64,000 nucleotides of DNA. Source: Agrococcus sp. ProA11 (GTDB taxonomy: Bacteria > Actinomycetota > Actinomycetes > Actinomycetales > Microbacteriaceae). The DNA is taken from assembly GCF_039880525.1 (NCBI RefSeq), contig NZ_CP156989.1:2542001-2606000 (forward strand), read 5' to 3'. Under the pieces are notes generated by a model. The model made no database searches. It was not told where the DNA came from and was given only the letters and a program-made list of their open reading frames with translations. This document shows positions 6,589 through 26,555 of this stretch, piece after piece (the stretch's first letter is position 1; each line of letters opens with the position of its first letter). Position numbers and translations under genes: made by a program.

Positions 6589-6592
6589 GCCC

Positions 6593-7897
6593 CTAGCCTG
6601 CCGCAGCCTCGCGATGCGCGCCGCTCCACGTGAACTCCCGCACCGACTCCGGCAGCATCTCCATGCCGGAGCCGGGCGCGGTCGGCGCCCGGTACGAGCC
6701 CTGCTCGATGACCGTCGGGGTCACGAAGTGCTCGTGCAGGTGGTCGACGAACTCGATCACGCGGCCGGCGCGTGTGCCCGCGACCGCGACGAAGTCGAAC
6801 ATCGACAGGTGCTGCACGGCCTCGCACAGCCCGACGCCGCCGGCGTGCGGGCACACCGGCAGGCCGAACTTGGCCGCCAGCAGCAGGATCGCGACGTTCT
6901 CGTTCACGCCGCCGACGCGCGTGGCGTCGATCTGCACGTAGTTGAGCGCCTCGGCCTGCATGAGCTGCTTGAAGACGATGCGGTTCTGCACGTGCTCGCC
7001 GGTCGCGACGGGCACGGGCGCGATGCCGCGGGCGATCGCGGCGTGCCCGAGCACGTCGTCGGGGCTGGTCGGCTCCTCCACCCAGTGCACGCCGAAGGGC
7101 GCGAGCTCCCGCACCCAGTCGATGGCGGACTGCACGTCCCAGCGCTGGTTCGCGTCGATCGCGATCGGGAAGTCGGGCCCGCACACCTCGCGCGCGATGC
7201 GGAAGCGGCGCACGTCGTCGGACAGATCCGCACCGACCTTGAGCTTGATCTGGGTGAAGCCATCCGCCATTGCCTCCCGGCAGAGCCGCGCGAGCTTCTC
7301 GTCGGAGTAGCCGAGCCATCCGGGCGTGGTCGTGTACGCGGGGTAGCCGGTCGCGAGCAGCTCGGCCTCGCGCTCGGCGCGGCCGGGCTCGGCGGCGCGC
7401 AGGATCTCGAGCGCCTCCTCGCGCGTGAGCGCGTCGCTCAGGTAGCGGAAGTCGACCAGGTCGACGAGCTCCTCGGGGCTCATGCGCGCCAGCAGCTGCC
7501 ACAGCGGCAGGCCGGCGCGCTTGGCCTTGAGATCCCAGAGCGCGTTGATGACGGCGCCGATCGCCATGTGCATGACGCCCTTCTCGGGCCCGAGCCAGCG
7601 CAGCTGCGAGTCGCCGATGAGCCAGGCAGAGGTCGCGCCCATGTCGGCCAGCAGCGGCTCGACCTCACGCCCACGCAGGTGCTCCGCGACCGCGCTGATG
7701 GCCGCCAGCTGCACGTCGTTGCCGCGACCGATCGTGAAGACGAAGCCGTGTCCCTCCAGCACATCGTCGGCGTCGGTGCGGATGACGAGGTAGGCCGCCG
7801 AGTAGTCGGGATCCGGGTTCATCGCATCGGAGCCGTCGAGGCCCTGCGACGTGGGGAATCGGACGTCGGCGACGTCGACGGTGACGATCGTGCTCAT
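6593..7897 (-). CDS. L-fuconate dehydratase (enolase superfamily)
   Basis: 434 residues, matching the usual fuconate dehydratase length. The N-terminus [20 protein letters not shown] is characteristic of this subgroup. Enolase-superfamily catalytic residues are visible: IKLKVG (Lys base), DANQRWD (metal Asp), EEPTSPDD (metal Glu), ATGEH, and [10 protein letters not shown] (His acid/base). It dehydrates L-fuconate to 2-keto-3-deoxy-L-fuconate with Mg2+. The ATG at 7897 begins the family-conserved sequence; the longer upstream frame crosses the divergent promoter. First gene of the minus-strand fucose block. Confidence 0.9.
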
Positions 7898-7933
7898 GCG
7901 CGCTCCTGCTCTGCTGTGGCCCCTGCAGACTAT

Positions 7934-7950
7934 AGATCCGATGTTTGAGA
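7934..7950 (+). promoter_or_regulatory. putative operator, FCD regulon motif copy f
   Basis: AGATCCGATGTTTGAGA contains TCCGATGTTT, a variant of the TCSGATSTTY motif. It lies 37 bases upstream of the dehydratase ATG in the 160-bp divergent promoter. Confidence 0.4.
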
Positions 7951-8000
7951 GGCAAGTCTCTGGGATTCTTCGCGGCTCTGCCCTACGATCGGGGCAGACT

Positions 8001-8019
8001 TCGGATGTTCTTGCATCCG
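8001..8019 (+). promoter_or_regulatory. putative operator, FCD regulon motif copy c
   Basis: TCGGATGTTC followed by TTGCATCCG. It combines the regulon motif with a perfect 6-bp inverted repeat, CGGATG-N6-CATCCG (8002-8019). It sits 39 bases upstream of the hydrolase ATG at 8058 in the same divergent promoter. Confidence 0.45.
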
Positions 8020-8057
8020 GCAGCAGGCTCGCAGACAGCGATGACGGAAGGGGCAGG

Positions 8058-8909
8058 ATGCGATTGGCACGACTCGGAGCGGTGGGCGCGGAGGTGCCCG
8101 TCATCATCGACGGCGAGCGCGCGCTCGACCTGCGCTCCATCACCGCGGACATCGACGGGGCGTTCCTCGCCGACGGCATGGACGCAGCACGGGCAGCGCT
8201 CGAGGCCGGCGAGCTGCCGACGCTCGACCGCGAAGGCCTGCGCGTCGGTGCGCCCATCGCGCGTCCGGGCGCAGTGGTCTGCATCGGCATGAACTACGCG
8301 GCGCATGCGGCCGAGTCGGGCAGCGAGCCGCCCAAGCAGCCGGTGATCTTCCTCAAGCACCCGAACACGGTGGTCGGGCCCGACGACGACGTGCCGCTGC
8401 CCGCGCACGCCGAGAAGATGGACTGGGAGGTCGAGCTGGCCATCGTGATCGGCAAGCCCGCCTGGAATCTCGCATCGCGCGAGGAGGCCCTCGCGTGCAT
8501 CGCGGGTGCGACGGTCGCCGACGATCTCTCCGAGCGCACGTGGCAGCTCGAGATCTCGGGCGGCCAGTGGTCGAAGGGCAAGTGCGCGCCGAGCTCGACG
8601 CCGCTCGGACCGGTGCTCGTGACGAGCGACGAGGTCGACTTCGGCGCGCTGCGGCTGCGGAGCCGCGTGAACGGCGAGCCGCGGCAGGACTCCTCCACGG
8701 CCGACCTCATCTTCGACGTCGCGACCGTGGTGCAGGACCTGAGCCGCTACATGCGCCTCGACCCGGGCGATCTGGTGCTGACCGGCACGCCCGAGGGCGT
8801 CGCGCTGTCGGGCCGGTTCCCCTACCTGGCCGACGGCGACATCGTGGAGATCGAGATCGACGGCCTGGGCGCGCAGCGCCACACCATGGTCGCGGAGGGA
8901 GCGGCATGA
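8058..8909 (+). CDS. fumarylacetoacetate hydrolase family, likely 2,4-diketo-3-deoxy-L-fuconate hydrolase
   Basis: 283 residues. Family signatures are [28 protein letters not shown], the metal triad region [14 protein letters not shown] (Glu residues), [11 protein letters not shown] and [11 protein letters not shown]. In the L-fucose route this family cleaves 2,4-diketo-3-deoxy-L-fuconate to pyruvate and L-lactate. The ATG at 8058 is preceded by GGAAGGGG; the open frame upstream extends into the divergent promoter. It overlaps the following SDR by ATGA. The family also includes ureidoglycolate lyase-like and other diketo-acid hydrolases, so context carries the substrate. Confidence 0.82.
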
Positions 8910-9646
8910 GCGAGTTCGATGGACTGGTCGCGGTCGTCACCGGTGGTGGCAGCGGCATCGGCGCGGCGATCGCGGACGAGCTGGCAGGACGCGGAGCCCG
9001 CGTCGCCGTGCTCGATCTGCGACCGGGCGATCGGCATCTGCCGGTGGAGTGCGACATCGCCGATGACGCCTCCGTGCGGCAGGCGATCGATCGGGTCGCG
9101 AGCGAGCTGGGCGGGATCGACATCGTCGTGAACAACGCCGGCATCGGCGCCGCGGGCGCAATCGACGGCAACGACGAGGACGAGTGGCACCGCGTCTGGG
9201 ATGTGAACGTGGTCGGCATCATGCGCGTGACGCGCGCGGCGCTGCCGCACCTGCGCGAATCGGCTGCGGCAGCGGTCGTCAACACGTCGTCGATCGCCGC
9301 GACGGCGGGCCTGCCGCAGCGCGCGCTCTACTCGGCGACGAAGGGCGCGGTGCTCGCGCTGACGCGCGCGATGGCCGCCGACCACCTGCGCGAGGGCATC
9401 CGCGTCAACGCCGTGAACCCCGGCACGGCAGACACCCCGTGGGTCGCCAGGCTGCTCGACGCCGCACCCGACCCCGCGCAGGAGCGTGCGCAGCTCGAGG
9501 CCCGCCAGCCGCACGGCCGGCTCGTCGCGCCCGAGGAGATCGCGCATGCGGTCGCCTACCTCGCGAGCCCCAGGGCCGGCTCGACCACCGGCACGAGCGT
9601 CGCGGTCGACGGCGGCATGCAGGAGCTGCGGCTGCGCAAGGAGTAG
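8906..9646 (+). CDS. SDR dehydrogenase, likely 2-keto-3-deoxy-L-fuconate dehydrogenase
   Basis: 246 residues of classical SDR. TGGGSGIG (cofactor), NNAG, NTSSIAATAG (Ser), YSATKGAV (Tyr/Lys) and the C-terminal GTSVAVDGGM are all present. The expected reaction is NAD-dependent oxidation of C4 of 2-keto-3-deoxy-L-fuconate to the 2,4-diketo acid used by the co-transcribed hydrolase. Start ATG at 8906 overlaps the hydrolase stop. A role as L-fucose dehydrogenase is the main alternative, since SDR-type fucose dehydrogenases exist. Confidence 0.78.
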   Translation: MSEFDGLVAVVTGGGSGIGAAIADELAGRGARVAVLDLRPGDRHLPVECDIADDASVRQAIDRVASELGGIDIVVNNAGIGAAGAIDGNDEDEWHRVWDVNVVGIMRVTRAALPHLRESAAAAVVNTSSIAATAGLPQRALYSATKGAVLALTRAMAADHLREGIRVNAVNPGTADTPWVARLLDAAPDPAQERAQLEARQPHGRLVAPEEIAHAVAYLASPRAGSTTGTSVAVDGGMQELRLRKE

Positions 9647-11818: not shown

Positions 11819-12631
11819 ATGGCGACCACCACCCCGCGCCGCGGGCGGACCGCGGCGTCGATGCCCTCGATCCGCATCGACCGGCTCTCCGCCGCACCGA
11901 TGTACGACCAGCTGCGCCGGCAGATCCTGGAGACCATCGAGGACGATGACCTGCAGCCGGGCGACCTGCTGCCGAGCGAGCTGCGCATGTGCGAGCTCTA
12001 CGGCGTCTCGCGCACGGTCGTGCGGCAGGCGCTCGGGCAGCTCGAGCACGACGGCGTCATCACCCGGGTCAAGGGCAAGGGCACGTTCGTCGCCCCGCAG
12101 AAGACGGCGGAGTCGCTCGCCAACGGGCTCGCCGGCCTGTTCGAGGAGGTCTCCGCGCGCGGCGGCCACGTGCACTCGGAGGTGCTGCGGCTCGAGCGCG
12201 TGCCCGCGACCGACGCGGTCGCCGCCCAACTGCAGCTGGCGCCCGGCACGACAGTCGTGGCGCTCGAGCGGCTGCGCTTCGTGGACGGCGAGCGCTGGTC
12301 GCTCTCGACCACTTGGCTTCCGGAGCCGATCGGCGCGCACGTCTTCGGCGCCGACCTCACCGAGAGCTCGCTCTATGCGCTGCTCGCCTCGCACGGCATC
12401 CGAGCCGCGAAGGGCGTGCGCTCGGTCGAGGCGTCGATGACGGATGCGCGAGAGGGCGAGCTGCTCGGCATCGGGCCGTCGAAGCCGGTGCTGCTGCTGC
12501 GCAGCACCATGGTGGATGCCGCCGATCGCCCGATCGAGCACTTCCGCGCGCTGCATCGCGGCGATCGCACGCGCTTCGAGTTCCATCCCTCGGCGAGCGA
12601 TCCGCACGGTCCGCTGTTCCGCACGCACTGA
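11819..12631 (+). CDS. GntR-family regulator with UTRA ligand domain
   Basis: 270 residues. Residues about 20-90 are a GntR winged helix (PMYDQLRRQILETI, LPSELRMCELYGVSRTVVRQ, wing KGKGTFVAPQ); residues about 105-265 are a UTRA (HutC-type) domain with ERLRFVDGERW and LLLRSTMVDA. UTRA regulators bind a small metabolite, often a sugar phosphate, and release operators. It starts 2 bases after rbsD and lies between two copies of the TGTAATGACAGG element, which it probably binds. The N-terminal 15 residues are a poorly conserved basic tail. Confidence 0.88.
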   Translation: MATTTPRRGRTAASMPSIRIDRLSAAPMYDQLRRQILETIEDDDLQPGDLLPSELRMCELYGVSRTVVRQALGQLEHDGVITRVKGKGTFVAPQKTAESLANGLAGLFEEVSARGGHVHSEVLRLERVPATDAVAAQLQLAPGTTVVALERLRFVDGERWSLSTTWLPEPIGAHVFGADLTESSLYALLASHGIRAAKGVRSVEASMTDAREGELLGIGPSKPVLLLRSTMVDAADRPIEHFRALHRGDRTRFEFHPSASDPHGPLFRTH

Positions 12632-12660
12632 GCGCTCGGCGCCCGTTCCACCTGGCGCAA

Positions 12661-12676
12661 ACCTGTAATGACAGGT
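12661..12676. promoter_or_regulatory. putative UTRA-GntR operator, copy 2
   Basis: ACCTGTAATGACAGGT: 6-bp perfect arms ACCTGT/ACAGGT around AATG. It lies in the 93-bp gap between the regulator and the isomerase operon, 48 bases before the GTG start. Bases 12664-12675 are identical to copy 1 at 10373-10384. Confidence 0.6.
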
Positions 12677-12724
12677 AGGGTCGCAGTGTGCGCGAGGACG
12701 CGCGCCCACCGACCGAGGAGACCC

Positions 12725-13300
12725 GTGCCCGAGTTCGCCACGCCCCCCATCGCCCCGTTCGCGATTCGCTTCGATGCCGAGGCCGCGACCCTCACGCCGT
12801 CCGGCCCGACGCTGGAGCGCCGCATGAGCGACCTCGAGGGCCTGTTCGCCGACCACGACGCCTGGCAGGCAGCGGTCGCCGACGGCGACCCCGTGGTCTA
12901 CCGCGTGCAGTCCTCGCCCGTCCCGGAGGCCGACCGCGAGCTGCCGCAGTCGATCACCACGATCGAGCCCGGCACGACGGCCGGCGAGTGCTGGATGACG
13001 AAGGGGCACCAGCACCCCAACCACCAGGGGGAGATCTACCTGGCGCTGCACGGCACCGGCGGGCTGCTCATGTTCGACGGCGAGCGCACCGAATGGCTCG
13101 ACATGACGCCCGGCGTCATCGGCTACATCCCGCCGGGCTGGGCGCACCGCTCGGTCAACGTCGGCGACGAGCCCTACTCGTTCCTCGCGGTCTACCCCGG
13201 CGGGGCCGGGCACGACTACGGCTGGGTGCTCGAGCACGGCATGGGCAACCGCATCCACCGCGATGGCGCCGGCTTCGAGCGCCGCCCCTACAGCGCCTGA
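12725..13300 (+). CDS. cupin-type glucose-6-phosphate isomerase family
   Basis: 191 residues. TKGHQHPNHQGEIYLALHG carries the cupin metal ligands H95, H97 and E103, with a further histidine in GWAHRS at H141; this pattern defines the archaeal-type (Pfam GPI) phosphoglucose isomerase. The family interconverts aldose-6-phosphate and ketose-6-phosphate using a bound metal. Start GTG at 12725 has GAGGAG 4 bases upstream; an in-frame ATG at 12668 lies within the operator palindrome and is less likely. First gene of a six-gene coupled operon. The exact sugar phosphate is unknown; central glycolysis normally uses another isomerase. Confidence 0.82.
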   Translation: MPEFATPPIAPFAIRFDAEAATLTPSGPTLERRMSDLEGLFADHDAWQAAVADGDPVVYRVQSSPVPEADRELPQSITTIEPGTTAGECWMTKGHQHPNHQGEIYLALHGTGGLLMFDGERTEWLDMTPGVIGYIPPGWAHRSVNVGDEPYSFLAVYPGGAGHDYGWVLEHGMGNRIHRDGAGFERRPYSA

Positions 13301-13302
13301 GC

Positions 13303-14793
13303 ATGCTGATCGCGCACGACCTCGGCACCACCGGGAACAAGGCCAGCCTGCACGACGACGACGGGCGCCTCCGCGCCTCCACGACCGTCGGCTATCCGGC
13401 GCACTTCGCCGACGGCGGCGTCGCCGAGCAGGATCCCCGCGATTGGGAGCGCGCGGTCGTCGAGGCCACCCGCACGCTCCTGGCGGAGACGGGGACCGAC
13501 CCCGCGACGGTCACGGGGCTCGTCGTCAGCGGCCAGATGATGGGCGCCGTGCTGCTCGACGAGCGCTACGAGCCGGTGCGCGACGCGATCATCTGGGCCG
13601 ACACCCGGTCGCAGCCGCAGACGCAGCAGCTCGTCGACCGGCTCGGTGAGGATGATGCCTACGCCCTGCTGGGCCACCGCCTGAACCCCACCTACTCGAT
13701 CGCCAAGGTCATGTGGGTGCGCGACAACGAGCCGTCGGTGTTCGAGCGCGTGCGCTGGTTCTGCGTGGCGAAGGACTTCGTCGTGCACCGCCTGACCGGC
13801 CGCCTCGCGACCGAGCCGAGCGACGCATCCGCCACCAACGCCTTCGACCAGCGCGCGGGCACCTGGTCGCAGGCGGTCATCGACGCGGCGGGCCTCGACA
13901 GCGCCATCTTCCCCGAGATCGTGCCGTCGACCGAGGTGGTTGGCACGCTCACGGCGGATGCCGCCGCGGCCACCGGCCTGCTGCAGGGCACGCGCGTCGT
14001 GATGGGCGGCGGCGACGGCCCCATCGCTGCGGTCGGCGCCAGCATCGTGGCCCCCGAGGATGGCGCCTACGTGTGCATGGGCACCTCGTCGTGGATCTCG
14101 TTCGCCGCCGAGCAGCCCGTGCTCGACCCCAGTCAGCGCACCTTCACCTTCGACCACGTGGTCCCGGGCCTCTACGTGCCGACCGCGACCATGCAGTCGG
14201 CGGGCGCATCGGTGAGCTGGATCAACGAGGTGCTCTCGCCCGAGCCCGACGGGCAGACCCTCTCGCAGCTCGTCGCCGAGGCGGACACCGACGACGCCGC
14301 GACCGGTGGCCTCTACTTCCTCCCCTACCTGCTCGGCGAGCGCTCGCCGCGCTGGAACCCGGATGCGCGGGGCGCCTTCGTCGGCATCGGCCGGCACCAC
14401 GGCCGGCCCCACCTGGTGCGCGCCGTGCTCGAGGGCGTGGCCTTCAACCTCGCCGTCTGCATCGACGCGTTCCGGGCATCGGGCACCACGATCGACCGCA
14501 TCGACGCGGTCGGCGGCGGTGCCGCGAGCGACGCCTGGCTGCAGATCATGGCGGACGTCTGGGGCGTGCCCGTGCGCCGCCGCTCCGTGGTCGAGGAGGC
14601 CAACAGCCTCGGCGCCGCCGTCGTCGGCGCGGTGGGCCTCGGCCTGGTCGACTCCTTCGCGGCAGCCCGCGACCTGTCGGAGGTGACCGCGGAGTTCACG
14701 CCCGAGGTGGGCCGCCACGACGACTACCGGCGACGCCTGACGCGCTTCGACGAGGCCTACGATGCCCTCCAGCCGTGGTTCGGGAGGCAGTGA
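13303..14793 (+). CDS. FGGY-family carbohydrate kinase, xylulokinase-like
   Basis: 496 residues. AHDLGTTGNKASLHD is the N-terminal phosphate loop, GQMMGAVLLDE and WADTRSQPQ the sugar-side motifs, GGGDGPIAAVGA and DAVGGGAASDAWLQIMAD the C-terminal signatures. It phosphorylates a ketose, polyol or sugar acid in the cytoplasm. It begins 2 bases after the isomerase stop. The N-terminal GTTGNK and the overall style are those of xylulokinase-like proteins in polyol and sugar-acid clusters; the true substrate cannot be read. Confidence 0.83.
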   Translation: MLIAHDLGTTGNKASLHDDDGRLRASTTVGYPAHFADGGVAEQDPRDWERAVVEATRTLLAETGTDPATVTGLVVSGQMMGAVLLDERYEPVRDAIIWADTRSQPQTQQLVDRLGEDDAYALLGHRLNPTYSIAKVMWVRDNEPSVFERVRWFCVAKDFVVHRLTGRLATEPSDASATNAFDQRAGTWSQAVIDAAGLDSAIFPEIVPSTEVVGTLTADAAAATGLLQGTRVVMGGGDGPIAAVGASIVAPEDGAYVCMGTSSWISFAAEQPVLDPSQRTFTFDHVVPGLYVPTATMQSAGASVSWINEVLSPEPDGQTLSQLVAEADTDDAATGGLYFLPYLLGERSPRWNPDARGAFVGIGRHHGRPHLVRAVLEGVAFNLAVCIDAFRASGTTIDRIDAVGGGAASDAWLQIMADVWGVPVRRRSVVEEANSLGAAVVGAVGLGLVDSFAAARDLSEVTAEFTPEVGRHDDYRRRLTRFDEAYDALQPWFGRQ

Positions 14794-15782
14794 TGGCGAC
14801 GATCCTGGCGACCAGCCGCTCCTTCGGCGCCGGCAGCATCGACCTCGCCGGCGACCTCGAGCGCGCGGGCCACACGGTGCTCCGCGGGCCGAGCGACCAC
14901 GGACTCGAGGCGCTGCGGGGCGCCCTCGCCACGGCCGACGCCTGGGTGGCGGGCACGGGCCCCGTGACCGCGGCGCACCTCGACGCCGCGCCGCGGCTGC
15001 GCGTGGTGGCGCGCTACGGCGTCGGCACGGAGGCCGTCGACGTCGAGGCCGCCGCCCAGCGCGGCATCCTCGTCACGAACACGCCGGGCGCCAACTCAGA
15101 CGCGGTGGCCGACCACGCGGTCGCGCTCATGCTCGCGGCGCTGCGCTCGATCGCGGACGGCGACCGGCGGGTGCGCGCGAGCGACTGGACGGTCGTGCGC
15201 GGTCGACAGCTCGGCGCGCTCACGGTCGGCATCGTCGGCTTTGGCCGCATCGGCCGCGGGGTCGCACAGCGGCTCAGCGGCTTCGGCTCGCGGATCGTCG
15301 CCGCCGACCCGATGCTCAGCGACCAGCAGTTGCGCGAGGCCGGCGCCGAGCCGATGGGCTTCGCCGAGATGGCGAGCGAGTGCGACCTCATCACGCTGCA
15401 CGCGCCCGGCGGCCAGACGCTCGTCGACGCCGCGTGGCTCGGCACCCTCGCGCGCCCGGTCGTGCTCGTCAACACCGCGCGTGCGGACCTCATCGACGAG
15501 GACGCGCTCGCGGCGGCGCTGCGGGCGCGCACCGTGGCGGCGTACGCCGCCGACACCTTGCTCGGCGACACGGCGGCCGACGCATCCGCACTGCTGGTGG
15601 AGGATCTCGCCGATCGCGTCACCATCACCCCGCACCTGGCGGCGCAGACCGTCGAGGCGGTCGACGGCATGGGCTCGATGGCCGTCGAGAACGCCCTCGC
15701 CGCGCTGGCCGGGCGCACGGCCCCGAACCCCGTGAACGAACCAGATCCGGCGGCCAGCCGCCGACGACAGGAGACCGCGTGA
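14793..15782 (+). CDS. D-isomer-specific 2-hydroxyacid dehydrogenase
   Basis: 329 residues. VVARYGVGTEAVDVEAAAQR, TPGANSDAVADHAVALML, VGFGRIGRG (Rossmann glycines at about 149-154), NTARADLID with the substrate-binding Arg at R230, and TPHLAAQT with the catalytic His at H281 are all canonical for the phosphoglycerate dehydrogenase/hydroxypyruvate reductase family. It reduces a 2-keto acid or oxidises a 2-hydroxy acid with NAD(P). One-base-overlap start after the kinase with GGGAGG Shine-Dalgarno. With a KDPG-type aldolase next, the natural substrate may be a sugar-derived 2-hydroxy or 2-keto acid phosphate. Confidence 0.83.
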   Translation: MATILATSRSFGAGSIDLAGDLERAGHTVLRGPSDHGLEALRGALATADAWVAGTGPVTAAHLDAAPRLRVVARYGVGTEAVDVEAAAQRGILVTNTPGANSDAVADHAVALMLAALRSIADGDRRVRASDWTVVRGRQLGALTVGIVGFGRIGRGVAQRLSGFGSRIVAADPMLSDQQLREAGAEPMGFAEMASECDLITLHAPGGQTLVDAAWLGTLARPVVLVNTARADLIDEDALAAALRARTVAAYAADTLLGDTAADASALLVEDLADRVTITPHLAAQTVEAVDGMGSMAVENALAALAGRTAPNPVNEPDPAASRRRQETA

Positions 15783-16435
15783 ATCCGACAGCAGTGGCCG
15801 ACCGGCTCGCATCCGTCCGGGCGACCGGCGTGCTCGCCGTGCTGCGCGCCGCGAGCCCCGAGACCGCCATCGAGGCCGCGAATGCGCTCATCCGCGGCGG
15901 CGTGACCGGCATCGAGGTGACCTACTCGACGCCCGACGCGCCCGCGGTGATCGCCGAGCTGCGCCGCAGCCACGGCGACGCCGCGCTCGTGGGTGCGGGC
16001 ACCGTCACGACGCCGGCGCAGGCAGAGGAGTCGGCCGCGGCCGGCGCGCAGTTCCTCGTCTCCCCCGGCACCCTCCCGGGGCTGACGGGCGCCATGCTCG
16101 GCACCGGCCTCGTCACCATGACGGGCGCCATGACCCCCACCGAGGTGATGGTCGCGATGTCGCTCGGCGTGGATGTCGTGAAGGTGTTCCCGGCGTCGCT
16201 GGGCGGCCCCGGCTTCCTCAAGGCGCTGCGCGAGCCCTTCGCCGACGCCGTGCTCATGCCCACCGGCGGCGTGACCGCCGAGAACCTCGCGGAGTTCCTC
16301 GCGGCCGGCGCCGTCGCGGTGGGCGCCGGCGGCGACCTGCTCGCCAAGGACGCCCTGGCGGGCGGAGACTGGCACCGCATCGAGGCCCGCGCCCGCGACT
16401 ACGCGGCTGCGCTGCAGGCGGCGAGGCAGTCGTGA
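15779..16435 (+). CDS. KDPG/KHG-type aldolase
   Basis: 218 residues, the standard Entner-Doudoroff aldolase size. GIEVTYSTP contains the general-base glutamate (E46), VGAGTVTTPAQA the phosphate-side loop, and VDVVKVFPAS the Schiff-base lysine (K135). It cleaves a 2-keto-3-deoxy sugar acid (phosphate) to pyruvate and an aldehyde. GTG start at 15779 overlaps the preceding stop by GTGA, with AGGAG 5 bases upstream. No dehydratase is present in this operon, so how its 2-keto-3-deoxy substrate is made is unclear. Confidence 0.88.
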   Translation: MNPTAVADRLASVRATGVLAVLRAASPETAIEAANALIRGGVTGIEVTYSTPDAPAVIAELRRSHGDAALVGAGTVTTPAQAEESAAAGAQFLVSPGTLPGLTGAMLGTGLVTMTGAMTPTEVMVAMSLGVDVVKVFPASLGGPGFLKALREPFADAVLMPTGGVTAENLAEFLAAGAVAVGAGGDLLAKDALAGGDWHRIEARARDYAAALQAARQS

Positions 16436-17343
16436 GCGAGCGGATGGGATTCGTCGGCGTCTCGACCGGGTCGTCGTCGATCATGCGCATCTTCCCGGTG
16501 TGGGCCGAGATCCTCGACCTCCCCACGCGTGAGCTCGCGGGCCACGACCTGCCGCTCGACTCCACGCCGACGCAGTACCGCGCGCTGGTCGAGCAGATCC
16601 GCGACGACCCCTCCCATCGCGGCGCGCTTGTCACGACCCACAAGATGGCCCTCTACGAGGCGGCGCACGACCTGTTCGACGAGCTCGACGACTTCGCCCG
16701 CGCCTGCGGCGAGGTCTCCAGCATCGCCAAGCGTCACGGCCGGCTGCTCGGGCACGCGAAGGACCCCATCACGGCGGGGCTCGCGCTCGACGAGTTCCTG
16801 CCGACGGATGCCTTCGGCGGGGCCCGCGACGCGGTCGTGCTGGGCGCCGGCGGCGCGGGCCTCGCGCTGACATGGCGGCTCGCCGAGCGCGACGACCGGC
16901 CGCGTCGCATCATCGTCACCGACGCCAGCCAGGATCGGCTCGACCACCTCGCCCAGGTGCACGAGGCGCGCGGCACCGACCCGGCGCTGCTGCACCTCGT
17001 GCTCGCGAGCCCCTCGGCCACCCGCGCAGCGCTCGACGATGCCCCGGCAGGCAGCCTAGTGGTCAACGCCTCCGGTCTCGGCAAGGACCGCCCCGGCTCG
17101 CCCGTGCCCGATGGCGCCCGCTTCCCGGAGCGCGCCGTGGTCTGGGAGTTCAACTACCGCGGCAGCCTCGAGTTCCTGCAGCAGGCCCGCGCGCAGCAGG
17201 CCGAGCGGCAGCTGACGATCGTCGACGGCTGGCGCTACTTCATCCACGGCTGGACCCAGGTGATCGGCGAGGTCTTCGAGACCGACATGACGCCCGAGAT
17301 CGTCGAGCGCCTGGCAGCGGCGGCGGAGCCGTTCCGGGCATGA
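16432..17343 (+). CDS. divergent shikimate-dehydrogenase-like oxidoreductase
   Basis: 303 residues. The layout is that of AroE: catalytic-type lysine in VTTHK (K71, replacing VTxPxK), an aspartate in HAKDPITAG (D111, replacing NTD), and a cofactor loop VLGAGGAG (138-143). The usual N-terminal SLSPxxHN shikimate motif is replaced by STGSSSIMRIFP, so shikimate is unlikely. The position inside a sugar operon, with GTGA overlap upstream and ATGA overlap downstream, suggests a dehydrogenase for a sugar-derived or cyclic polyol substrate. Related 'shikimate dehydrogenase' annotations in sugar clusters are mostly uncharacterised. Confidence 0.68.
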   Translation: MSERMGFVGVSTGSSSIMRIFPVWAEILDLPTRELAGHDLPLDSTPTQYRALVEQIRDDPSHRGALVTTHKMALYEAAHDLFDELDDFARACGEVSSIAKRHGRLLGHAKDPITAGLALDEFLPTDAFGGARDAVVLGAGGAGLALTWRLAERDDRPRRIIVTDASQDRLDHLAQVHEARGTDPALLHLVLASPSATRAALDDAPAGSLVVNASGLGKDRPGSPVPDGARFPERAVVWEFNYRGSLEFLQQARAQQAERQLTIVDGWRYFIHGWTQVIGEVFETDMTPEIVERLAAAAEPFRA

Positions 17344-18320
17344 GCGGCATGCGCGCGGCGCCCGTTCCTGCACCGCTCATCCGCACGGTGCTGGGCGACA
17401 TCGACGCGGCGTCGCTCGGCAGGGTCAACGCCCACGAGCACCTGTTCCAGGTCTCGCCGCTGCTGCCGGGCGACGAGCTCGACGATGCCCGGCGCTCCGC
17501 GGCTGAGGCGGCGAGCCTGCGCGACTCCGGCTTCGACGCCATGATCGACGCCACGCCCATCGGCCTCGGGCGCCGACCGGCATCGGTCGCCGCCATCAGC
17601 GAAGCAACGGGCCTGCGGGTGGTCGCGAGCACCGGCATCCACCGCGAGGCGCACTACCCCGACGGCCATCCGCTGCGCGCGCTCGACGCCGACGCGCGCG
17701 CCGCGCTGTTCCTGCGCGACCTGCGCGACGGCATGCCCGACGCGGATGACGCCGCGGAGCCCGATCTCGACGACGCCTCCCGTGCGCCCGTGCGCGCGGG
17801 ACTGATCAAGACCGGCATCGGCTACTGGTCGATCTCTGCCTTCGAGCGCACCACCCTCGAGGCCGCAGCCGCAGCCCACGCGGCGACCGGCGCGGCGATC
17901 ATGGTGCACCTCGAGCACGGCACGGCCGCGCACGAGGTGCTCGACCTGCTGGAGTCGCTCGACGTGAGCGCCGAACGTGTCATGCTCGCGCACGCCGACA
18001 GGCTGCTGGACGCGGGTCATCACGTCGAGCTGCTCGAGCGCGGCGCGGCGCTGGGCTACGACGGCATCGCCCGATGGAAGGACCGCAGCGACGAGGAGCT
18101 GCTGACGCTCACCGCAGCCGTCGTCGAGCGCGGGCACGATCGCCTCCTGCTGGGCGGCGACGTCGCGCGCGCCTCCCGCTACGTCGCCTACGGCGGCATG
18201 CCGGGGCTCGCCTACCTCGGCGCTCGATACCTCCCGAGGCTGCGGGCTCGCATCGGCGAGGCCGCGCTCGAGCGCATGCTCGTGCAGCATCCGCGCGACC
18301 TGCTCACGCTCAGCCGCTGA
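17340..18320 (+). CDS. phosphotriesterase-like metal-dependent lactonase/esterase
   Basis: 326 residues of the PTE/amidohydrolase family. Metal and catalytic residues are visible in order: NAHEHLF (H32, H34), LIKTGIGYWS (carboxylated-type Lys, K157), IMVHLEHGT (H190), MLAHADR (H218) and LLLGGDVAR (D274). Members of this family include sugar-lactone-phosphate hydrolases such as D-xylono-1,4-lactone-5-phosphate lactonase, a more likely role here than phosphotriester hydrolysis. Last gene of the operon, starting in ATGA overlap with the SKDH-like gene and followed by a strong terminator. Confidence 0.78.
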   Translation: MSGMRAAPVPAPLIRTVLGDIDAASLGRVNAHEHLFQVSPLLPGDELDDARRSAAEAASLRDSGFDAMIDATPIGLGRRPASVAAISEATGLRVVASTGIHREAHYPDGHPLRALDADARAALFLRDLRDGMPDADDAAEPDLDDASRAPVRAGLIKTGIGYWSISAFERTTLEAAAAAHAATGAAIMVHLEHGTAAHEVLDLLESLDVSAERVMLAHADRLLDAGHHVELLERGAALGYDGIARWKDRSDEELLTLTAAVVERGHDRLLLGGDVARASRYVAYGGMPGLAYLGARYLPRLRARIGEAALERMLVQHPRDLLTLSR

Positions 18321-18329
18321 CGGCACGAC

Positions 18330-18360
18330 GAAGCCCCCGACCGCGATGGTCGAGGGCTTC
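18330..18360. terminator. bidirectional hairpin terminator
   Basis: GAAGCCCCCGACC and GGTCGAGGGCTTC form a 13-bp stem with one mismatch around GCGAT. It sits between the convergent lactonase and solute-binding-protein genes and would stop both transcripts. Confidence 0.8.
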
Positions 18361-18382
18361 GCGTCAGACTCGGCTCAGCGGA

Positions 18383-19384
18383 TCACTCGTAGAGGACCGC
18401 TGCGATCTCCGGGTCGTCGATGTTGGTCGAGTCGTACCAGTACGAACCGGTGTCGGTGAAGTCCTCGAGCTCCTCGCCGTTGACCGCCGCGACCGCGTTC
18501 TCGACCACGCTGCGGCCGATGCCGATCGGGTCCTGCGTGATGGCGCCCGCCATCGCGCCGCTGCGGATCGCCTCGATCTGGGCGGCGCCCGAGTCGAAGC
18601 CGACGATGGTGATCTGCCCGTTCGGCAGGTTCAGCTCGCTGGCAGCGTTCACGATGCCGATCGCCGAGCCCTCGTTGGTGCCGTACAGGCCCGCGAGGTC
18701 GGGGTGGGCGGCGATGATCGCCTTCGCGATGTCGGCCGAGCGCAGGTGGTCGCCGTCGCCGTACTGGATGTCGACGATCTCGATGTCGGGCTCGTTCTCC
18801 TCCATGTACTGGACGAAGCCGTCGCGGCGCTCGACACCGGTCGAGTTGATCTGGCTGTGGCCGACGATCGCGACCTGGCCCTCGTGGCCGATGAGCTCCG
18901 CCATGTGCTCGGCGGCGAGGCCGCCGGCGACGATGGAGTCGGTCGCTGCCAGGTTCTGGCTGTACTCGCTGTCGCAGGGCGCGTCGAACTCGACGATCGG
19001 GATGCTCGCACCCTCGGCCTGCTCATACAGCGGCACGCATGCCTGCGGGTCGAGCGCGGCGTAGCCGATCGCGTCGGGACCGCGGTCGATCGCGGCGCGC
19101 AGCATCTGCAGCTGCGCGTCGATCTCGGTCTCGGATGCGGGACCCTCGAAGGTCACCTCGACGCCGAGCTCGTCCGCTGCCTCCTCGGCACCGGTGCGCA
19201 CGGCCTGCCAGAACTGGTGCTGGAAGCCCTTCGACACGAGTGCGATCTGCAGCGTCTCGCCGTTGCCCTCGGAGCCTGCGCCCTCGGAACCTGCCGGGGC
19301 GTCGGTGCCGCCGGAGCAGCCCGCGAGCGCGAGTGCGACGGTCGCGGTGCCTGCCAGCAGCGCTGTCCTCTTGCTGAACTTCAT
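18383..19384 (-). CDS. sugar ABC transporter substrate-binding lipoprotein (RbsB type)
   Basis: 333 residues. The N-terminus has basic residues, a hydrophobic run LLAGTATVALALAGC and a lipobox cysteine, so the protein is lipid-anchored outside the membrane. The mature part follows the periplasmic-binding-protein I fold: LQIALVSKGFQHQFWQAVRTG, AAIDRGPDAIGYAALD, IPIVEFDAPCD, LYGTNEGSAIGIV and IVGFDSGAAQIEAIR. Start ATG at 19384 has GGAG 5 bases upstream. Third gene of the ATPase-permease-binding protein transcript, separated from the permease by 148 bases. D-ribose, L-fucose or a related pentose are candidates. Confidence 0.87.
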   Translation of the reverse strand: MKFSKRTALLAGTATVALALAGCSGGTDAPAGSEGAGSEGNGETLQIALVSKGFQHQFWQAVRTGAEEAADELGVEVTFEGPASETEIDAQLQMLRAAIDRGPDAIGYAALDPQACVPLYEQAEGASIPIVEFDAPCDSEYSQNLAATDSIVAGGLAAEHMAELIGHEGQVAIVGHSQINSTGVERRDGFVQYMEENEPDIEIVDIQYGDGDHLRSADIAKAIIAAHPDLAGLYGTNEGSAIGIVNAASELNLPNGQITIVGFDSGAAQIEAIRSGAMAGAITQDPIGIGRSVVENAVAAVNGEELEDFTDTGSYWYDSTNIDDPEIAAVLYE

Positions 19385-19532
19385 GGAAACTCCGTTGTCT
19401 CGTGATCCCGGGATGTCCGGTGATCGGGTCCTGCTGTGCCGGGTGCCTGCCCCCTGGGGCGAGCTGGATGCCGGGACGGTCCGGCTGCGCTCGGCGGCTG
19501 GCACGTGATGCCGCCGGTCGCAGGTCTTGGGG

Positions 19533-20555
19533 TCATACGCCTCGTCGGTTGCGCAGCGTGTCGGCGAAGACGGCGATCGCGATCACGACACCGACGACGA
19601 CGTTCTGCCACTCCGTCTGGATCGACATGATGCGCAGACCGTTGATGAGCACGCTCATGATGAGCGCGCCGATGAGCGTGCCCACGATCGAGCCGCGTCC
19701 ACCGAGGAGCGAGGTGCCGCCGATGATCACCGCGGCGATCGCCTGCAGCTCGTAGCCGACACCGAGCTGCGGCTGCGCCGAGTCGAGCCGCGAGGCGATC
19801 ACCACGCCCGCGATGCCCGTGAACACGCCGGCGACCGTGTAGATCATCACGAGTCGACGGTTGGTGTTGATGCCGGACAGGCGCGTCGCCTCCTCGTTGG
19901 AGCCGATGGCGACGGTGTACCGGCCGAAGGTCGTCTTGCTCAGCAGCACGTAGGCGAACGCGGCGAGCGCGAACATGATGAGCACGGCGTTCGGCAGACC
20001 GGGGATGAGGGTGCCGGTCGCGATCTCCTTGAAGCCGGCCACGCCGGAGAAGTAGATCGGGCTGACGCCCGAGATCACGAGCGCCAGGCCCTGCGCGACC
20101 ATCATCATCGCGAGCGTCGCGATGAAGGGCGGCAGCTTGAGGTAGGCGACGTTGAAGCCGTTGACGAAGCCCATGAGCGCGCCCGTCAGGATGCCGGCGA
20201 GCACGCCGACGATGAGTGGCAGGCCGAAGTTCACGGCGACGACACCGGTCATCACCGACGCCAGCGTCATGCCGGTGCCGATCGAGAGATCGATGCCGCC
20301 GGTGGTGATGACGAAGGTCGTGCCGAGGGCGAGGATGCCGATCACGGCGGTCGCCAGCAGGATGCCGGAGATGTTCGACCAGGTGAAGAAGTTGTTGCTG
20401 GCGATCGAGAAGAAGAGCAGCAGCAGCACCAGGGTGCCGAAGGCGAGGCCCTGCTGCAGGCCCTTGCGCCAGAGATCGGCGCGCTTGCCGCGCTCCTTGG
20501 CGATCGCCGTGTCCGAGGGGGCGTCGACGGGAGTCTGGGGGGTGGTGTTCGTCAT
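19533..20555 (-). CDS. sugar ABC transporter permease (RbsC type)
   Basis: 340 residues with about eight to ten hydrophobic segments after a charged cytoplasmic N-terminus. FVITTGGIDLSIGTGMTLASV and the SLLGGRGSIVGTLIGALIM segment are the hallmarks of the BPD_transp_2 ribose/xylose permease family. It forms the membrane channel of the importer. Its ATG overlaps the ATPase stop (ATGA, 20552-20555). Confidence 0.9.
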   Translation of the reverse strand: MTNTTPQTPVDAPSDTAIAKERGKRADLWRKGLQQGLAFGTLVLLLLFFSIASNNFFTWSNISGILLATAVIGILALGTTFVITTGGIDLSIGTGMTLASVMTGVVAVNFGLPLIVGVLAGILTGALMGFVNGFNVAYLKLPPFIATLAMMMVAQGLALVISGVSPIYFSGVAGFKEIATGTLIPGLPNAVLIMFALAAFAYVLLSKTTFGRYTVAIGSNEEATRLSGINTNRRLVMIYTVAGVFTGIAGVVIASRLDSAQPQLGVGYELQAIAAVIIGGTSLLGGRGSIVGTLIGALIMSVLINGLRIMSIQTEWQNVVVGVVIAIAVFADTLRNRRGV

Positions 20556-22069
20556 GCTGCTCCCTCTTCGTCCGCGACCAGGTGGGTCGCGTAATCCATG
20601 ATCTTCTGCTGGCTCGCATCCTCGTTCGCGAGCGTGCCCGTGACTCGGCCGTTGGCCATCACCACGATGCGGTGCGCCAGGCGCAGCACCTCCGGCAGCT
20701 CGCTGGAGATGACGATGATCGACTTGCCGTCGGCGGCGAGGCGCTGCAGCAGGCGATAGATCTCCTCCTTCGCACCCACGTCGATGCCACGGGTGGGCTC
20801 GTCGAAGATGAGGATGTCGCTGTCGCGCACCAGCCACTTGGCGATGACGACCTTCTGCTGGTTGCCGCCGGAGAGCAGCTTCACGTGCTGCTCGGTGGAG
20901 GGCGTCTTGGTGCGGAGCTCCTCGACGTAGCGCTGCGCGACCTTCTTCGCCTTCGCCTGCTGGATGAACCCGAGGGGGCCGGCGAACGCACCGATCGAGG
21001 CGAGCGACGTGTTGAACGTGACGCTCTGCTCGAGCAGCAGGCCGAGGCGCTTGCGGTCCTCCGAGAGGTAGCCGATGCCCTGCCGCACGGCATCCGCGGG
21101 CTGCTTGATGGCGACCTGCTTGCCGTGCACCTCGATCGTGCCCGACGTGCGGGGATCGGCGCCGATGATCGCGCGGGCGGTCTCGGTGCGGCCGGCACCC
21201 ATCAGTCCCGCGAACCCCAGGATCTCGCCCCGGTGGAGCTCGAAGCTGACGTCTCGGAGCAGGGCGCGGGTGGAGAGGCCGGTGACGCGGAGCACGATCT
21301 CATCCCGCGCGTGGTCGCTCGCCTTCGGCCGCGCGCCCTCGTCGATGTGGCGCCCGACCATCATCTCGATGATGGTCGGCACGTCGATCTGCTCGCGCTC
21401 GAGGGTGCCGATGTACTCACCGTCGCGCAGCACCGTGACCCGATCGGCCAGGCGCTTGAGCTCCTCCATGCGGTGCGAGATGTAGACGATGCCGGTGCCC
21501 TTGGCGCGCAGGTTGTCGATCAGGCCGATGAGCGTCTCGACCTCGGTGTCGGTGAGCGCCGACGTGGGCTCGTCCATGATCAGCACGCGGGCGTCGAACG
21601 AGAGCGCCTTCGCGATCTCGACCATCTGCTGCTTCGCGACGGTGAGATCCCCGACGATCTGGTCGGCCTCGAGCGAGATCCCCATGTCGTCGAGCAGCTG
21701 CTGCGCCTTGCGGTTGATGCCGCGCGCATCCAGGAACGGGCCCTTGCGCGGCTCTCGCCCGATGTAGATGTTCTGGGCGACCGTGAGGTCGGGCATCAGG
21801 TTCATCTCCTGGTGGATGATGCTGATGCCGAGCTGCTGCGCCGCCGCCGGGTTGGCGATCGTGACCTCGCGGCCCTCGACCTTGATCGTGCCCTCGTCGC
21901 GCTGGTAGATGCCGGAGAGGATCTTCATCAGGGTCGACTTGCCAGCGCCGTTCTCGCCCACGAGGACGAGCACCTCACCCGCGTGCAGGGTGAACTGCAC
22001 CTGGTGGAGCGCCCGGACGCCCGGGAAGCTCTTGCTGATCCCCTCGACCTCGAGGAGCGCTGCTGTCAC
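20552..22069 (-). CDS. sugar ABC transporter ATP-binding protein, two-domain (RbsA type)
   Basis: 505 residues with two nucleotide-binding domains. The first has GENGAGKSTLMKIL (Walker A), IIHQEM (Q loop), LTVAKQQMVEIAKAL (signature region) and LIMDEPTSALT (Walker B). The second has the degenerate GLMGAGRTET Walker A, GGNQQKVVIAKWL signature and LIFDEPTRGIDVGAK, as usual in RbsA. A GTG at 22069 gives the typical RbsA N-terminus (LLEVEGISKSFPGVRAL); a further ATG at 22132 overlaps the operator-like palindrome and is unlikely. First gene of the importer operon. Confidence 0.9.
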   Translation of the reverse strand: MTAALLEVEGISKSFPGVRALHQVQFTLHAGEVLVLVGENGAGKSTLMKILSGIYQRDEGTIKVEGREVTIANPAAAQQLGISIIHQEMNLMPDLTVAQNIYIGREPRKGPFLDARGINRKAQQLLDDMGISLEADQIVGDLTVAKQQMVEIAKALSFDARVLIMDEPTSALTDTEVETLIGLIDNLRAKGTGIVYISHRMEELKRLADRVTVLRDGEYIGTLEREQIDVPTIIEMMVGRHIDEGARPKASDHARDEIVLRVTGLSTRALLRDVSFELHRGEILGFAGLMGAGRTETARAIIGADPRTSGTIEVHGKQVAIKQPADAVRQGIGYLSEDRKRLGLLLEQSVTFNTSLASIGAFAGPLGFIQQAKAKKVAQRYVEELRTKTPSTEQHVKLLSGGNQQKVVIAKWLVRDSDILIFDEPTRGIDVGAKEEIYRLLQRLAADGKSIIVISSELPEVLRLAHRIVVMANGRVTGTLANEDASQQKIMDYATHLVADEEGAA

Positions 22070-22112
22070 GTTGGTACCTGCTTCGTTGAAGGATTCCGAC
22101 TGCGTCAGACCC

Positions 22113-22130
22113 GGTCGGAAAGATCCGACC
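22113..22130. promoter_or_regulatory. putative operator, FCD regulon motif copy b (full palindrome)
   Basis: GGTCGGA-AAGA-TCCGACC, 7-bp perfect arms, located 43 bases before the ATPase start. On the minus strand it reads GGTCGGATCTTTCCGACC, whose first 13 bases are identical to 3547-3559 before the FCD regulator. Confidence 0.6.
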
Positions 22131-22163
22131 AATCATGCCCTCAGGTGGCGGTCTGTCGCAAGT

Positions 22164-22401: not shown

Positions 22402-24039
22402 CTACAGCGCGACGTCGCCGCAGAGGTGGACGCGGATGCCCATCCCCTCGAACATCGCTGCCTTCGCCTCCAGCGCCCGATCGGCGGCCTCGGCGTCCGG
22501 AGCGTAGGCGACCTGCACGTGGTTGGCCTTGTGGCGCGCCATCAGCTGGTCGCGGCTGACGCCGTGCAGCACCGCGTGCATGATGGGCCACTGCCGGTCT
22601 GTCGCCTCGAGCCGACGCTGCGTCTCCTCGGCCGGCAGCTCGGCCACGTGGGCCCGGCCGATGTCGGCATGCAGCGCGTCATCCATCACGAACACGCGCG
22701 ACCAGACGATCTCGCCCGGCTTCGAGACGCCCGAGAGCGTGCCGCCGCCCTTCGGGAAGAACATCGGCACCTGGCGCATCGAGTACGACTGGTCGTAGCC
22801 GCCGTTGTGGCTCGCGGGCACGGAGCCCGAGATCTCGAAGACCCAGACGAACTCGCCGTCGTACTCCTCGCCCCAGCGGATGTCGTGCAGCGTGGTGGCG
22901 GGGTCGAACCCCATCGCGGTCCACACCCGGTTGGTCACGAGCGCATCCACCGCGACGCCCTCGTCGACCTCGTTGAAGTGCGGCAGCGGCGCCCCGGCCC
23001 ACAGCTCTCGCTCGCCGTCGCGCGAGCGCACGGGCGGGCGCTGCACGTTGTTCAGCAGCCCCTCGGCGAGGTCGGATGCCGCGCACTGGTCCTTGAGGCC
23101 CTGCTGGTACTGGATGCCGATCGCGTCCACGCCGTAGTCGTCGCCGATGCGCAGCGCCGCGATGTACATCCGCAGCTGGCTGAGCACCTGCTCGCGGGTG
23201 AGCTCGGTCGCGTCGTCCTCGCCCCAGTGGAACGTCAGACCTGCCTCCTCGAGCCAGGCGAGCGCCGCCTCGGCCTCGCCGGCCGGCACGCGATCCATCT
23301 CGGCCAGCAGCGCGCTCTGCGAGAGCCGCTCCTTGTAGATGCCGGTGGGGTTGAGCATCTCGTCGTCGATGATGGCGTTGTACATGCCCATGCAGCCCTC
23401 ATCGAAGATGCCGATCACCGCGTGATCCTCGCGCAGCTGCTCGGCGAGCGCGGTGCCCAGCCGGGCCTCGTCGCTGTCGCGGAGCGCAGGCAGGTCGCGC
23501 ACGTGCGAGGTCTCGTGCGCGATGGCGCCGGTGCGCAGCCACTCCCCGAGCTTGTCGAGCGCCCACTCGTCCGTGAAGTCGCGGCTCCACAGGATCGAGT
23601 GCTCGATGTTGGCCTTCGTGAGGCTGGCGGTGAGGTTCAGCATGCCCACGAGGCCCGGGAACTGCCCCGACCAGTTGGCGACCAGCAGGATGGGACCGCG
23701 GTGCGCGCGCAGTCCCGCGAGCACGTGGTGGCTGTACTGCCAGACGGCGTCGACGACCACGACCGGCGCATCCTTGGGCACCGAGCGGAAGACCTCGATG
23801 CCGCGCGCCTGCGAGTCGATGAAGCCGTGGCCGGTCGCGGGATCGACGTCGTGCGCCCGCTGCATTGCCCAGCCGTGCGATGCCATCGCGGTGCGCACCT
23901 GCTCCTCGAACGCCTGCTGAGCCGGCCAGCAGGTCGTGTTCGCTGCCAGGCGCAGGTCGCCGGAGGCGACCGCGTAGACGGTGTCGGATGCGGGCTCGGG
24001 CCGGGAGCGCAGCTGCGGCATCGCGTAGGTGGTGGTCAT
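22402..24039 (-). CDS. L-fucose/D-arabinose isomerase-like protein
   Basis: 545 residues, in the range of FucI-type isomerases. PVVVVDAVWQYSHHVLAGL, GPILLVANWSGQFPGLVGML, IGIFDEGCMGMYNAIIDDEM and the C-terminal AHVAELP match the COG2407 L-fucose isomerase group; the glutamate and aspartate in FDEGCMGM and the late histidines are probable Mn ligands. It would convert an aldose (L-fucose, D-arabinose or similar) to the ketose used by the kinase 22 bases upstream on the same transcript. It is the distal gene of a two-gene operon. The proteins of this subgroup vary in substrate, so fucose is probable but not certain. Confidence 0.75.
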   Translation of the reverse strand: MTTTYAMPQLRSRPEPASDTVYAVASGDLRLAANTTCWPAQQAFEEQVRTAMASHGWAMQRAHDVDPATGHGFIDSQARGIEVFRSVPKDAPVVVVDAVWQYSHHVLAGLRAHRGPILLVANWSGQFPGLVGMLNLTASLTKANIEHSILWSRDFTDEWALDKLGEWLRTGAIAHETSHVRDLPALRDSDEARLGTALAEQLREDHAVIGIFDEGCMGMYNAIIDDEMLNPTGIYKERLSQSALLAEMDRVPAGEAEAALAWLEEAGLTFHWGEDDATELTREQVLSQLRMYIAALRIGDDYGVDAIGIQYQQGLKDQCAASDLAEGLLNNVQRPPVRSRDGERELWAGAPLPHFNEVDEGVAVDALVTNRVWTAMGFDPATTLHDIRWGEEYDGEFVWVFEISGSVPASHNGGYDQSYSMRQVPMFFPKGGGTLSGVSKPGEIVWSRVFVMDDALHADIGRAHVAELPAEETQRRLEATDRQWPIMHAVLHGVSRDQLMARHKANHVQVAYAPDAEAADRALEAKAAMFEGMGIRVHLCGDVAL

Positions 24040-24061
24040 GATGGTCCTTTCGGGAGGCGCG

Positions 24062-25534: not shown

Positions 25535-25571
25535 GGAGCACTCCTTCGATCCTGCTCTAGCGTGCCAGAGA

Positions 25572-25663: not shown

Positions 25664-25681
25664 TGCTTCAGCGGATGATGA

Positions 25682-26548: not shown

Positions 26549-26555
26549 GTCGTGC

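Follow-up and report, generated by a model that had tools for sequence, protein, structure and literature searches.

Several described bacterial pathways share parts with the locus considered here. The Entner-Doudoroff pathway (Edd/Eda) associates a phospho-lactonase step with an aldolase of the 2-keto-3-deoxy-6-phosphogluconate (KDPG) type and depends on the 6-phosphogluconate dehydratase Edd. In the 2-ketogluconate pathway of Pseudomonas (KguK, KguD), a 2-hydroxyacid dehydrogenase (2-HADH) connects an aldonate 6-phosphate with the corresponding 2-keto compound, acting there as a reductase, and the pathway is not known to comprise an aldolase, a cupin or a protein resembling shikimate dehydrogenase (SKDH). 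The D-altritol/galactitol pathway of Agrobacterium possesses a hexitol-binding transporter and polyol dehydrogenases, and leads through tagatose 6-phosphate to fructose 6-phosphate, with no SKDH, lactonase or 2-HADH known to take part. The present work deals with a six-gene operon located at positions 12725-18320, on the plus strand, of a 64,000-nucleotide stretch from the actinobacterium Agrococcus sp. ProA11 (contig NZ_CP156989.1, positions 2,542,001 to 2,606,000; hereafter the window). The operon resembles the Entner-Doudoroff pathway by its KDPG-type aldolase and its candidate phospho-lactonase, the Pseudomonas pathway by the link proposed for its 2-HADH and, in the rhizobial form of the cluster, the Agrobacterium pathway by the transporter and polyol dehydrogenases. 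As already pointed out in a first-pass annotation made from the DNA letters, it contains no dehydratase; the 2-HADH stands in the dehydratase's place.

The six genes form a compact array in which the joints consist of overlaps of 1 to 4 bases or, once, of a 2-base gap, just where the first-pass annotation had put it, and the gene families proposed there were borne out by profile matches (Pfam, NCBIfam):

12725-13300, plus strand: cupin sugar-phosphate isomerase of the archaeal phosphoglucose isomerase (PGI) type; PF06560, 74 bits
13303-14793, plus strand: FGGY ketose kinase, XylB-like; FGGY_N/C and TIGR01312; 2-base gap after the cupin gene
14793-15782, plus strand: D-2-hydroxyacid dehydrogenase (2-HADH); PF02826 and PF00389; 1-base overlap with the kinase gene
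15779-16435, plus strand: class I aldolase of the KDPG/KHG type; TIGR01182; 4-base overlap with the 2-HADH gene
16432-17343, plus strand: SKDH-fold dehydrogenase; AlphaFold model, Foldseek match to AroE; 4-base overlap with the aldolase gene
17340-18320, plus strand: PTE-family hydrolase; PF02126; 4-base overlap with the SKDH-like gene

Taken together, these proteins may plausibly break down an imported ketose, or a polyol first oxidised to a ketose, by way of phosphorylation and oxidation, a reading that we stop somewhat short of expecting to be right. Its steps rest on the protein families, their context and the gene swaps observed among relatives, from which every substrate and the order of the reactions are deduced. 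The FGGY kinase would turn the ketose into a ketose phosphate, which the cupin isomerase of PGI type would convert to an aldose phosphate. The SKDH-fold protein, as an aldose-phosphate 1-dehydrogenase, would then oxidise the ring carbon C1 to yield a lactone phosphate, and the PTE-type hydrolase (or, in relatives, a hydrolase of MBL fold), as a phospho-sugar lactonase, would open this lactone to an aldonate phosphate. Acting as an aldonate-phosphate 2-dehydrogenase, the 2-HADH would oxidise C2 to give a 2-keto-aldonate phosphate. Cleavage of the latter by the KDPG-type aldolase would finally release a keto acid of three carbons along with a small aldehyde phosphate (a triose phosphate in the case of a hexose). 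Since oxidising an aldose phosphate in such a linear series would need no dehydratase, the 2-keto-3-deoxy intermediate arising in some unusual way, as suggested in the first-pass annotation, is not required: two dehydrogenases and a lactonase fit the linear scheme, and the operons with HxlA and HxlB genes described below speak mildly against that intermediate. What the annotation had observed was confirmed; its interpretation holds in part only.

The SKDH-like protein occupies a central position in this scheme. None of the Pfam families exceeds its cut-off for this protein, and the aroE models give at most 45 bits (TIGR00507, 38 of the 200 bits demanded; best PRK00258 model, 45 of 295), which places it outside AroE as delimited by the curated cut-off. 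Its AlphaFold model (pLDDT 95.1) nevertheless matches AroE structures over its length (Foldseek; 2cy0, E 3e-17), at 15-25% identity in the Foldseek rows shown, and a PDB search with a profile built from 20 SKDH-like relatives retrieves both AroE and 5-ketofructose reductase. The fold of the model, the Rossmann domain and the Lys-Asp pair are shared with these two enzymes, the residues K71 and D111, aligned to the pair of AroE, being invariant in 43 rows of SKDH-like proteins. In contrast, the Asn position of AroE is occupied by a Ser, and three extra residues, K110, K218 and R243, also invariant in the 43 rows, would suit the binding of a phosphate. The geometry would allow the formation of a lactone: shikimate is oxidised at a ring carbon placed 1,3 to the carboxylate-bearing carbon, and C1 of an aldopyranose 6-phosphate would likewise be placed 1,3 to the carbon holding the phosphate arm. 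Unlike the genes of AroE and 5-ketofructose reductase, 68 of 72 copies of the SKDH-like gene have a sugar kinase gene no more than 8 kb away.

The five other enzymes are more readily assigned to their families. The cupin aligns with the phosphoglucose isomerases 1j3p and 1x7n (residues 11-177 of 191 aligned, with 149-150 bits; 150 for 1j3p) and keeps in at least 90% of 26 rows a His/Glu set which we take to be the metal ligands; it thus belongs with the cupin-type phosphoglucose isomerases by match and residues, in a catabolic setting. The kinase qualifies as xylulokinase-type (XylB TIGR01312, 390.5 bits for a cut-off of 380.25). The 2-HADH matches 2-Hacid_dh_C (PF02826) with 135 bits, and its Arg and His, presumably catalytic, are conserved in at least 90% of 29 rows. 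By its sequence, the aldolase ranks as a KDPG aldolase (TIGR01182 eda, 188.5 bits for a cut-off of 156) with Glu and Lys, presumed functional residues, conserved in at least 90% of 24 rows; it is the only KDPG/KHG-type protein of the genome (single match at E 0.001). The PTE-like protein belongs to the PTE superfamily (PF02126, 112 bits), keeping in at least 90% of 18 rows the HxH, Lys, His, His and Asp residues assumed to be the metal ligands, and its best solved relative, with 132 bits, is 3pnz, which we take to be a phospho-furanose lactonase. The phospho-furanose lactonases (NF045706, 3pnz) and the L-ascorbate 6-phosphate lactonase UlaG, which adopt the PTE and the MBL fold, respectively, both have a phosphorylated sugar lactone as substrate. 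The operon protein stays far under the cut-off of the former, and the MBL protein of relatives far under that of the latter (a weak 44 bits against UlaG, with its cut-off of 306, and 61 against the general metal-dependent hydrolase model, with its cut-off of 144).

Matches to the SKDH-like protein above 200 bits occur in 38 of 299 genomes covered by the family search, including that of the window, and a scan in which each species was represented by a single genome gave at least 580 relatives, the best 80 of which, from six phyla, were kept; the rate is low in two samples of other phyla (4/348 and 3/398 genomes). Fifteen plasmid records also match; the gene is labelled shikimate dehydrogenase in eight of the 15, the rest being devoid of a feature or an annotation there. 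Eight plasmid records were opened, three of them without annotation, and in the annotated ones the SKDH-like gene sits in sugar clusters. Neighbours were counted with profiles seeded from the window and from the annotated plasmid loci, and because such profiles may miss distant members, absences are worth less than presences. The 88 loci hold 90 SKDH copies, 18 of which were dropped for having a flank shorter than 6.5 kb. Among the remaining 72 copies, neighbourhood analysis recovers the cupin (68), the kinase (68), the 2-HADH (64) and a lactonase-type gene (66), in keeping with the idea, put forward in the first-pass annotation, that the genes form one unit; KDPG aldolase genes accompany 36 copies, solute-binding proteins lie within 8 kb of 57, and an ILVD dehydratase is near a single one. 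Expressed as 39 groups, set from record names, the figures become 36 for the cupin, 37 for the kinase, 32 for the 2-HADH, 33 for the lactonase and 29 for the aldolase, and nine further loci agree (PTE or MBL gene 9/9, cupin 8/9). Conservation in other phyla argues against a chance array. In addition, a locus designated L055 contains a possible further variant of the pathway at 11899-16088, where an MBL gene and a split transketolase accompany a second SKDH-like gene of divergent sequence, and in loci L094 and L096 a DeoC-type gene, which the proposed route does not explain, lies inside the operon.

The nature of the lactonase-type gene varies among these loci. PTE genes accompany 55 of the 72 copies and MBL genes 13 (PTE only 53, MBL only 11, both 2), and most Pseudomonadota loci encountered have the MBL-fold hydrolase where others have PTE. 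When the PTE/MBL label is mapped on a tree of 68 SKDH rows, at least three changes are required; the tree omits 22 closely related Microbacteriaceae loci, as well as copies of fewer than 230 residues. Whichever its type, the lactonase gene lies within 150 bp of the SKDH gene in 63 of the 78 copies with a lactonase on the locus. This exchange of hydrolases, unrelated in fold, beside the same SKDH-like gene, together with the adjacency, suggests that the SKDH-like protein produces a sugar-phosphate lactone. As for the 2-HADH, loci L025 and L123 have an FAD-linked oxidase gene beside the operon in place of the 2-HADH gene, and this points to the 2-HADH working in the oxidative direction.

A number of observations weigh against the oxidative route. 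Both L025 and L123 contain an SDR gene between the SKDH and MBL genes, which could be the true substitute for the 2-HADH, and in another locus, L022, the FAD-linked oxidase and a 2-HADH coexist, so that the argument on direction is a weak one. KDPG aldolases act on 2-keto-3-deoxy acids, and the release of hydroxypyruvate by an enzyme of this type would be unusual. To our knowledge, no protein of SKDH fold has yet been described that forms a lactone. The PTE-like protein obtains 101.9 bits against NF045706, the phospho-furanose lactonase model with a cut-off of 630, and hence falls outside that equivalog; neither lactonase is found beside 6 of the 72 copies (L081, L090, L091, L094, L098 and L104), and the 2-HADH and KDPG genes are absent from some loci. 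Moreover, keeping the best 80 of at least 580 relatives skews the sample toward relatives of the window. Enzymes of the SKDH family are able to act on sugars, as illustrated by 5-ketofructose reductase (7cok; PMC7954740), but one SKDH-like protein is reported in the same paper to be inactive on 5-ketofructose, and sugar activity is therefore not general to the family.

The aldolase would liberate either hydroxypyruvate, from an intermediate bearing a hydroxyl at C3, or pyruvate, from a 3-deoxy sugar. Three features lean towards the C3 hydroxyl. A psicose-3-epimerase-like gene (167 of 300 bits, hence under its cut-off) occurs on 37 of the 88 loci but in 8 of the 39 groups, and rhizobial loci contain genes of the polyol-dehydrogenase type (GolD/DthD type, glycerol dehydrogenase type). 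In two related Bacillota genomes, L125 and L127, whose SKDH proteins are 92% identical, the operon lacks the KDPG gene and continues into HxlA and HxlB genes, located after the operon cupin at 10807-12007 in L125 (248 and 225 bits, over the cut-offs) and at 5545-6741, with an inserted MDR dehydrogenase, in L127. There, the Hxl-family isomerase and decarboxylase could together act on a 2-keto-hexonate phosphate, releasing CO2 and leaving a pentulose phosphate; this variant mildly favours a C3 hydroxyl over a 3-deoxy intermediate. A further Bacillota locus, L099, retains the KDPG gene. In L081, HxlA/HxlB genes lie about 5 kb from an operon whose KDPG gene is present. Three Microbacterium genomes with an operon devoid of the KDPG gene all possess a 68-70% identical aldolase elsewhere (3/3 tested), which gave no clue to the substrate. 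It is conceivable, though we regard it as rather doubtful, that an aldose-phosphate 1-dehydrogenase of SKDH fold lies at the base of a widespread oxidative route for hexulose phosphates that dispenses with a dehydratase. The KDPG-type aldolase would split the 2-keto-aldonate phosphate of this route to triose phosphate and hydroxypyruvate; in some Bacillota, enzymes of the HxlB/HxlA type would instead isomerise and decarboxylate it to a pentulose phosphate.

Other explanations account for part of these data. Instead of making a lactone, the SKDH-like protein could carry out an oxidation or a reduction at C3 or C5, on a secondary hydroxyl of its sugar or sugar-acid phosphate substrate, the PTE/MBL hydrolase acting on some other ester or lactone; the sugar-active relative found among the PDB matches, 5-ketofructose reductase, indeed reduces a C5 ketone, and the HxlA/HxlB variant could act on 3-keto sugar acids. 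However, no enzyme of the operon would then make the lactone that a lactonase needs, and the close pairing of the lactonase and SKDH genes (63/78) would be left aside, so that we consider this explanation unlikely while still giving it real weight. The same oxidative route could also start from a 3-deoxy ketose, e.g., 3-deoxyfructose, the oxidation of C1 and C2 giving KDPG and, from there, pyruvate and glyceraldehyde 3-phosphate, with each of the six genes used once. Such a substrate fits the aldolase family and accounts for the missing dehydratase, and was favoured initially. It was downgraded to an improbable one because of the psicose-3-epimerase-like gene, which would need a hydroxyl at C3 (37/88 loci, 8/39 groups, under the cut-off), and of the two Bacillota operons in which HxlA/HxlB replace the aldolase; in addition, 3-deoxy ketoses are scarce, and a literature search on 3-deoxyfructose catabolism, at the level of titles, turned up nothing useful.

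Two further explanations call on genes located outside the operon. An Entner-Doudoroff-like route, with its dehydratase elsewhere in the genome and the 2-HADH as a side reductase, would make sense of the KDPG aldolase and the lactonase, both parts of the Entner-Doudoroff type. Yet the single PF00920 (ILVD/EDD) protein of the genome is IlvD (TIGR00110, 727 bits for a cut-off of 618; edd, 255 of 708), which leaves the genome without an Edd, and the MR_MLE proteins over the cut-off are three: that of a fucose-type cluster at window 6593-7852, an epimerase/cycloisomerase-like protein that reaches no NCBIfam cut-off, and MenC. An Edd-type dehydratase acting in trans was accordingly rejected for this genome, the genome-wide search having covered the PF00920 and MR_MLE families, and since the aldolase is the sole KDPG aldolase of a genome missing the Entner-Doudoroff dehydratase, it does not serve that pathway; we hold this explanation to be very unlikely. 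Alternatively, the operon could be an accessory branch of a neighbouring L-fucose (or L-galactose/D-arabinose) pathway. The window contains at 4754-9646 an oxidative cluster of the L-fucose type, with an L-fucono-lactonase-like protein, an aldo/keto-reductase-type open reading frame (ORF), an MR_MLE acid dehydratase-like protein, presumably L-fuconate dehydratase, a FAH-type hydrolase and an SDR, all under the NCBIfam equivalog cut-offs. In favour of this branch are the L-fucono-1,5-lactonase-like (177 of 400 bits), MR_MLE and FAH-type hydrolase (227 of 500 bits) genes at 4754-8909, and an MR_MLE gene of the same type on 28 of the 88 loci. Nevertheless, the operon has its own operator, and many loci (rhizobial, Saccharopolyspora and Chloroflexota ones, within the stretches analysed) carry it in the absence of that MR_MLE gene, for which reason a fucose branch appears quite improbable.

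With respect to the substrate of the proposed oxidative route, the binding protein of a rhizobial locus matches VEIS_2079 (4ry9) with 388 bits, and that of an Erwinia locus is 57% identical to it. The ligand of 4ry9 is presumably D-talitol, and this homology hints at a rare hexitol or hexulose; the window's own solute-binding protein shows a distant likeness only to solved ones. Cryobacterium tagatosivorans carries the operon (L033), and tagatose occurs in the description of this species only, among 19 described species (PMC10067761). An SKDH-like relative occurs in 9 of 57 Cryobacterium genomes, and the D-tagatose lead is therefore but a weak hint. A search of the open-access literature, with subscription journals mostly outside its reach, revealed no paper that assigns or describes the six-gene set, and the sugar or polyol pathway appears to be unassigned, as the first-pass annotation had it.

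The operon is flanked by a regulator gene and an operator-like site on one side, and by a hairpin and a convergent set of transporter genes on the other:

11819-12631, plus strand: GntR/UTRA (HutC-type) regulator; PF00392 and PF07702 over the cut-off
12661-12676, no strand: palindromic operator ACCTGTaatgACAGGT; sole exact match in the window, recurring upstream of cupin genes
18325-18364, no strand: hairpin between convergent transcription units, terminator-like without a T-run; from folding energy
18383-19504, minus strand: sugar ABC transporter solute-binding protein (RbsB class); PF13407; longest ORF, start approximate
19533-20837, minus strand: sugar ABC transporter permease; PF02653; longest ORF, the domain starting further inside
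20552-22132, minus strand: sugar ABC transporter ATPase (RbsA class); PF00005, two stretches

The operator announced in the first-pass annotation is present and is a perfect palindrome. The site ACCTGTAATGACAGGT at 12661-12676 is the sole exact match to ACCTGTNNNNACAGGT in the 64 kb (none in 100 shuffles), and in 33 of 62 loci the 200 bp preceding the cupin gene hold a site with at most one mismatch, compared with 26 of 4000 random 200-bp windows from the same loci, true sites left in. The same GntR gene precedes the operon in relatives, e.g., L030-L035; its product is likely a repressor of the operon and would control it by acting at ACCTGTnnnnACAGGT. In two Cryobacterium loci the operator is doubled, the pair being 17 bases apart (L030, 6251-6283; L033, 6252-6284). 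The cupin gene starts with GTG, with AGGAG 4 nt ahead of the start codon. In relatives, the 200 bp ahead of the ATPase gene, the first of the transporter unit in the Microbacteriaceae gene order, also hold operator-like sites, in 4 of 56 loci with at most one mismatch and in 21 of 56 with at most two; the random-window control applies to sites with at most one mismatch. The site scan of the window detected none upstream of its own ATPase gene, and joint control of operon and transporter is hence suggested for relatives only. The terminator expected behind the operon is partly supported: the hairpin at 18325-18364 is strong (-27.9 kcal/mol, z -3.6) and lies between the operon and the transporter genes that converge on it, but it has no T-run, and a consensus terminator scan of the window found none.

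Further sugar genes surround these units. Between the fucose-type genes and the GntR gene, the segment 9662-11816 comprises a fructose-6-phosphate-aldolase-like protein (119 of 246 bits), a PfkB kinase and a D-ribose pyranase (130 bits, over the cut-off of 93). The ORF at 22402-24201 resembles fucose/arabinose isomerases by eye, with no Pfam match at 1e-5, and its cluster occurs in 8 loci including the window. Finally, a second FGGY kinase and a DHDPS-family protein, followed by ORFs that by eye resemble tripartite tricarboxylate transporters, occupy 24062-29962, which is probably another sugar-acid cluster.

If the proposed oxidative route is correct, the SKDH-like relatives detected in at least 580 genome stretches would be misannotated catabolic sugar-phosphate dehydrogenases. 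The SKDH fold would gain a lactone-forming activity, a new role for the family, and bacteria would dispose of a second way of feeding a KDPG-type aldolase without a dehydratase.

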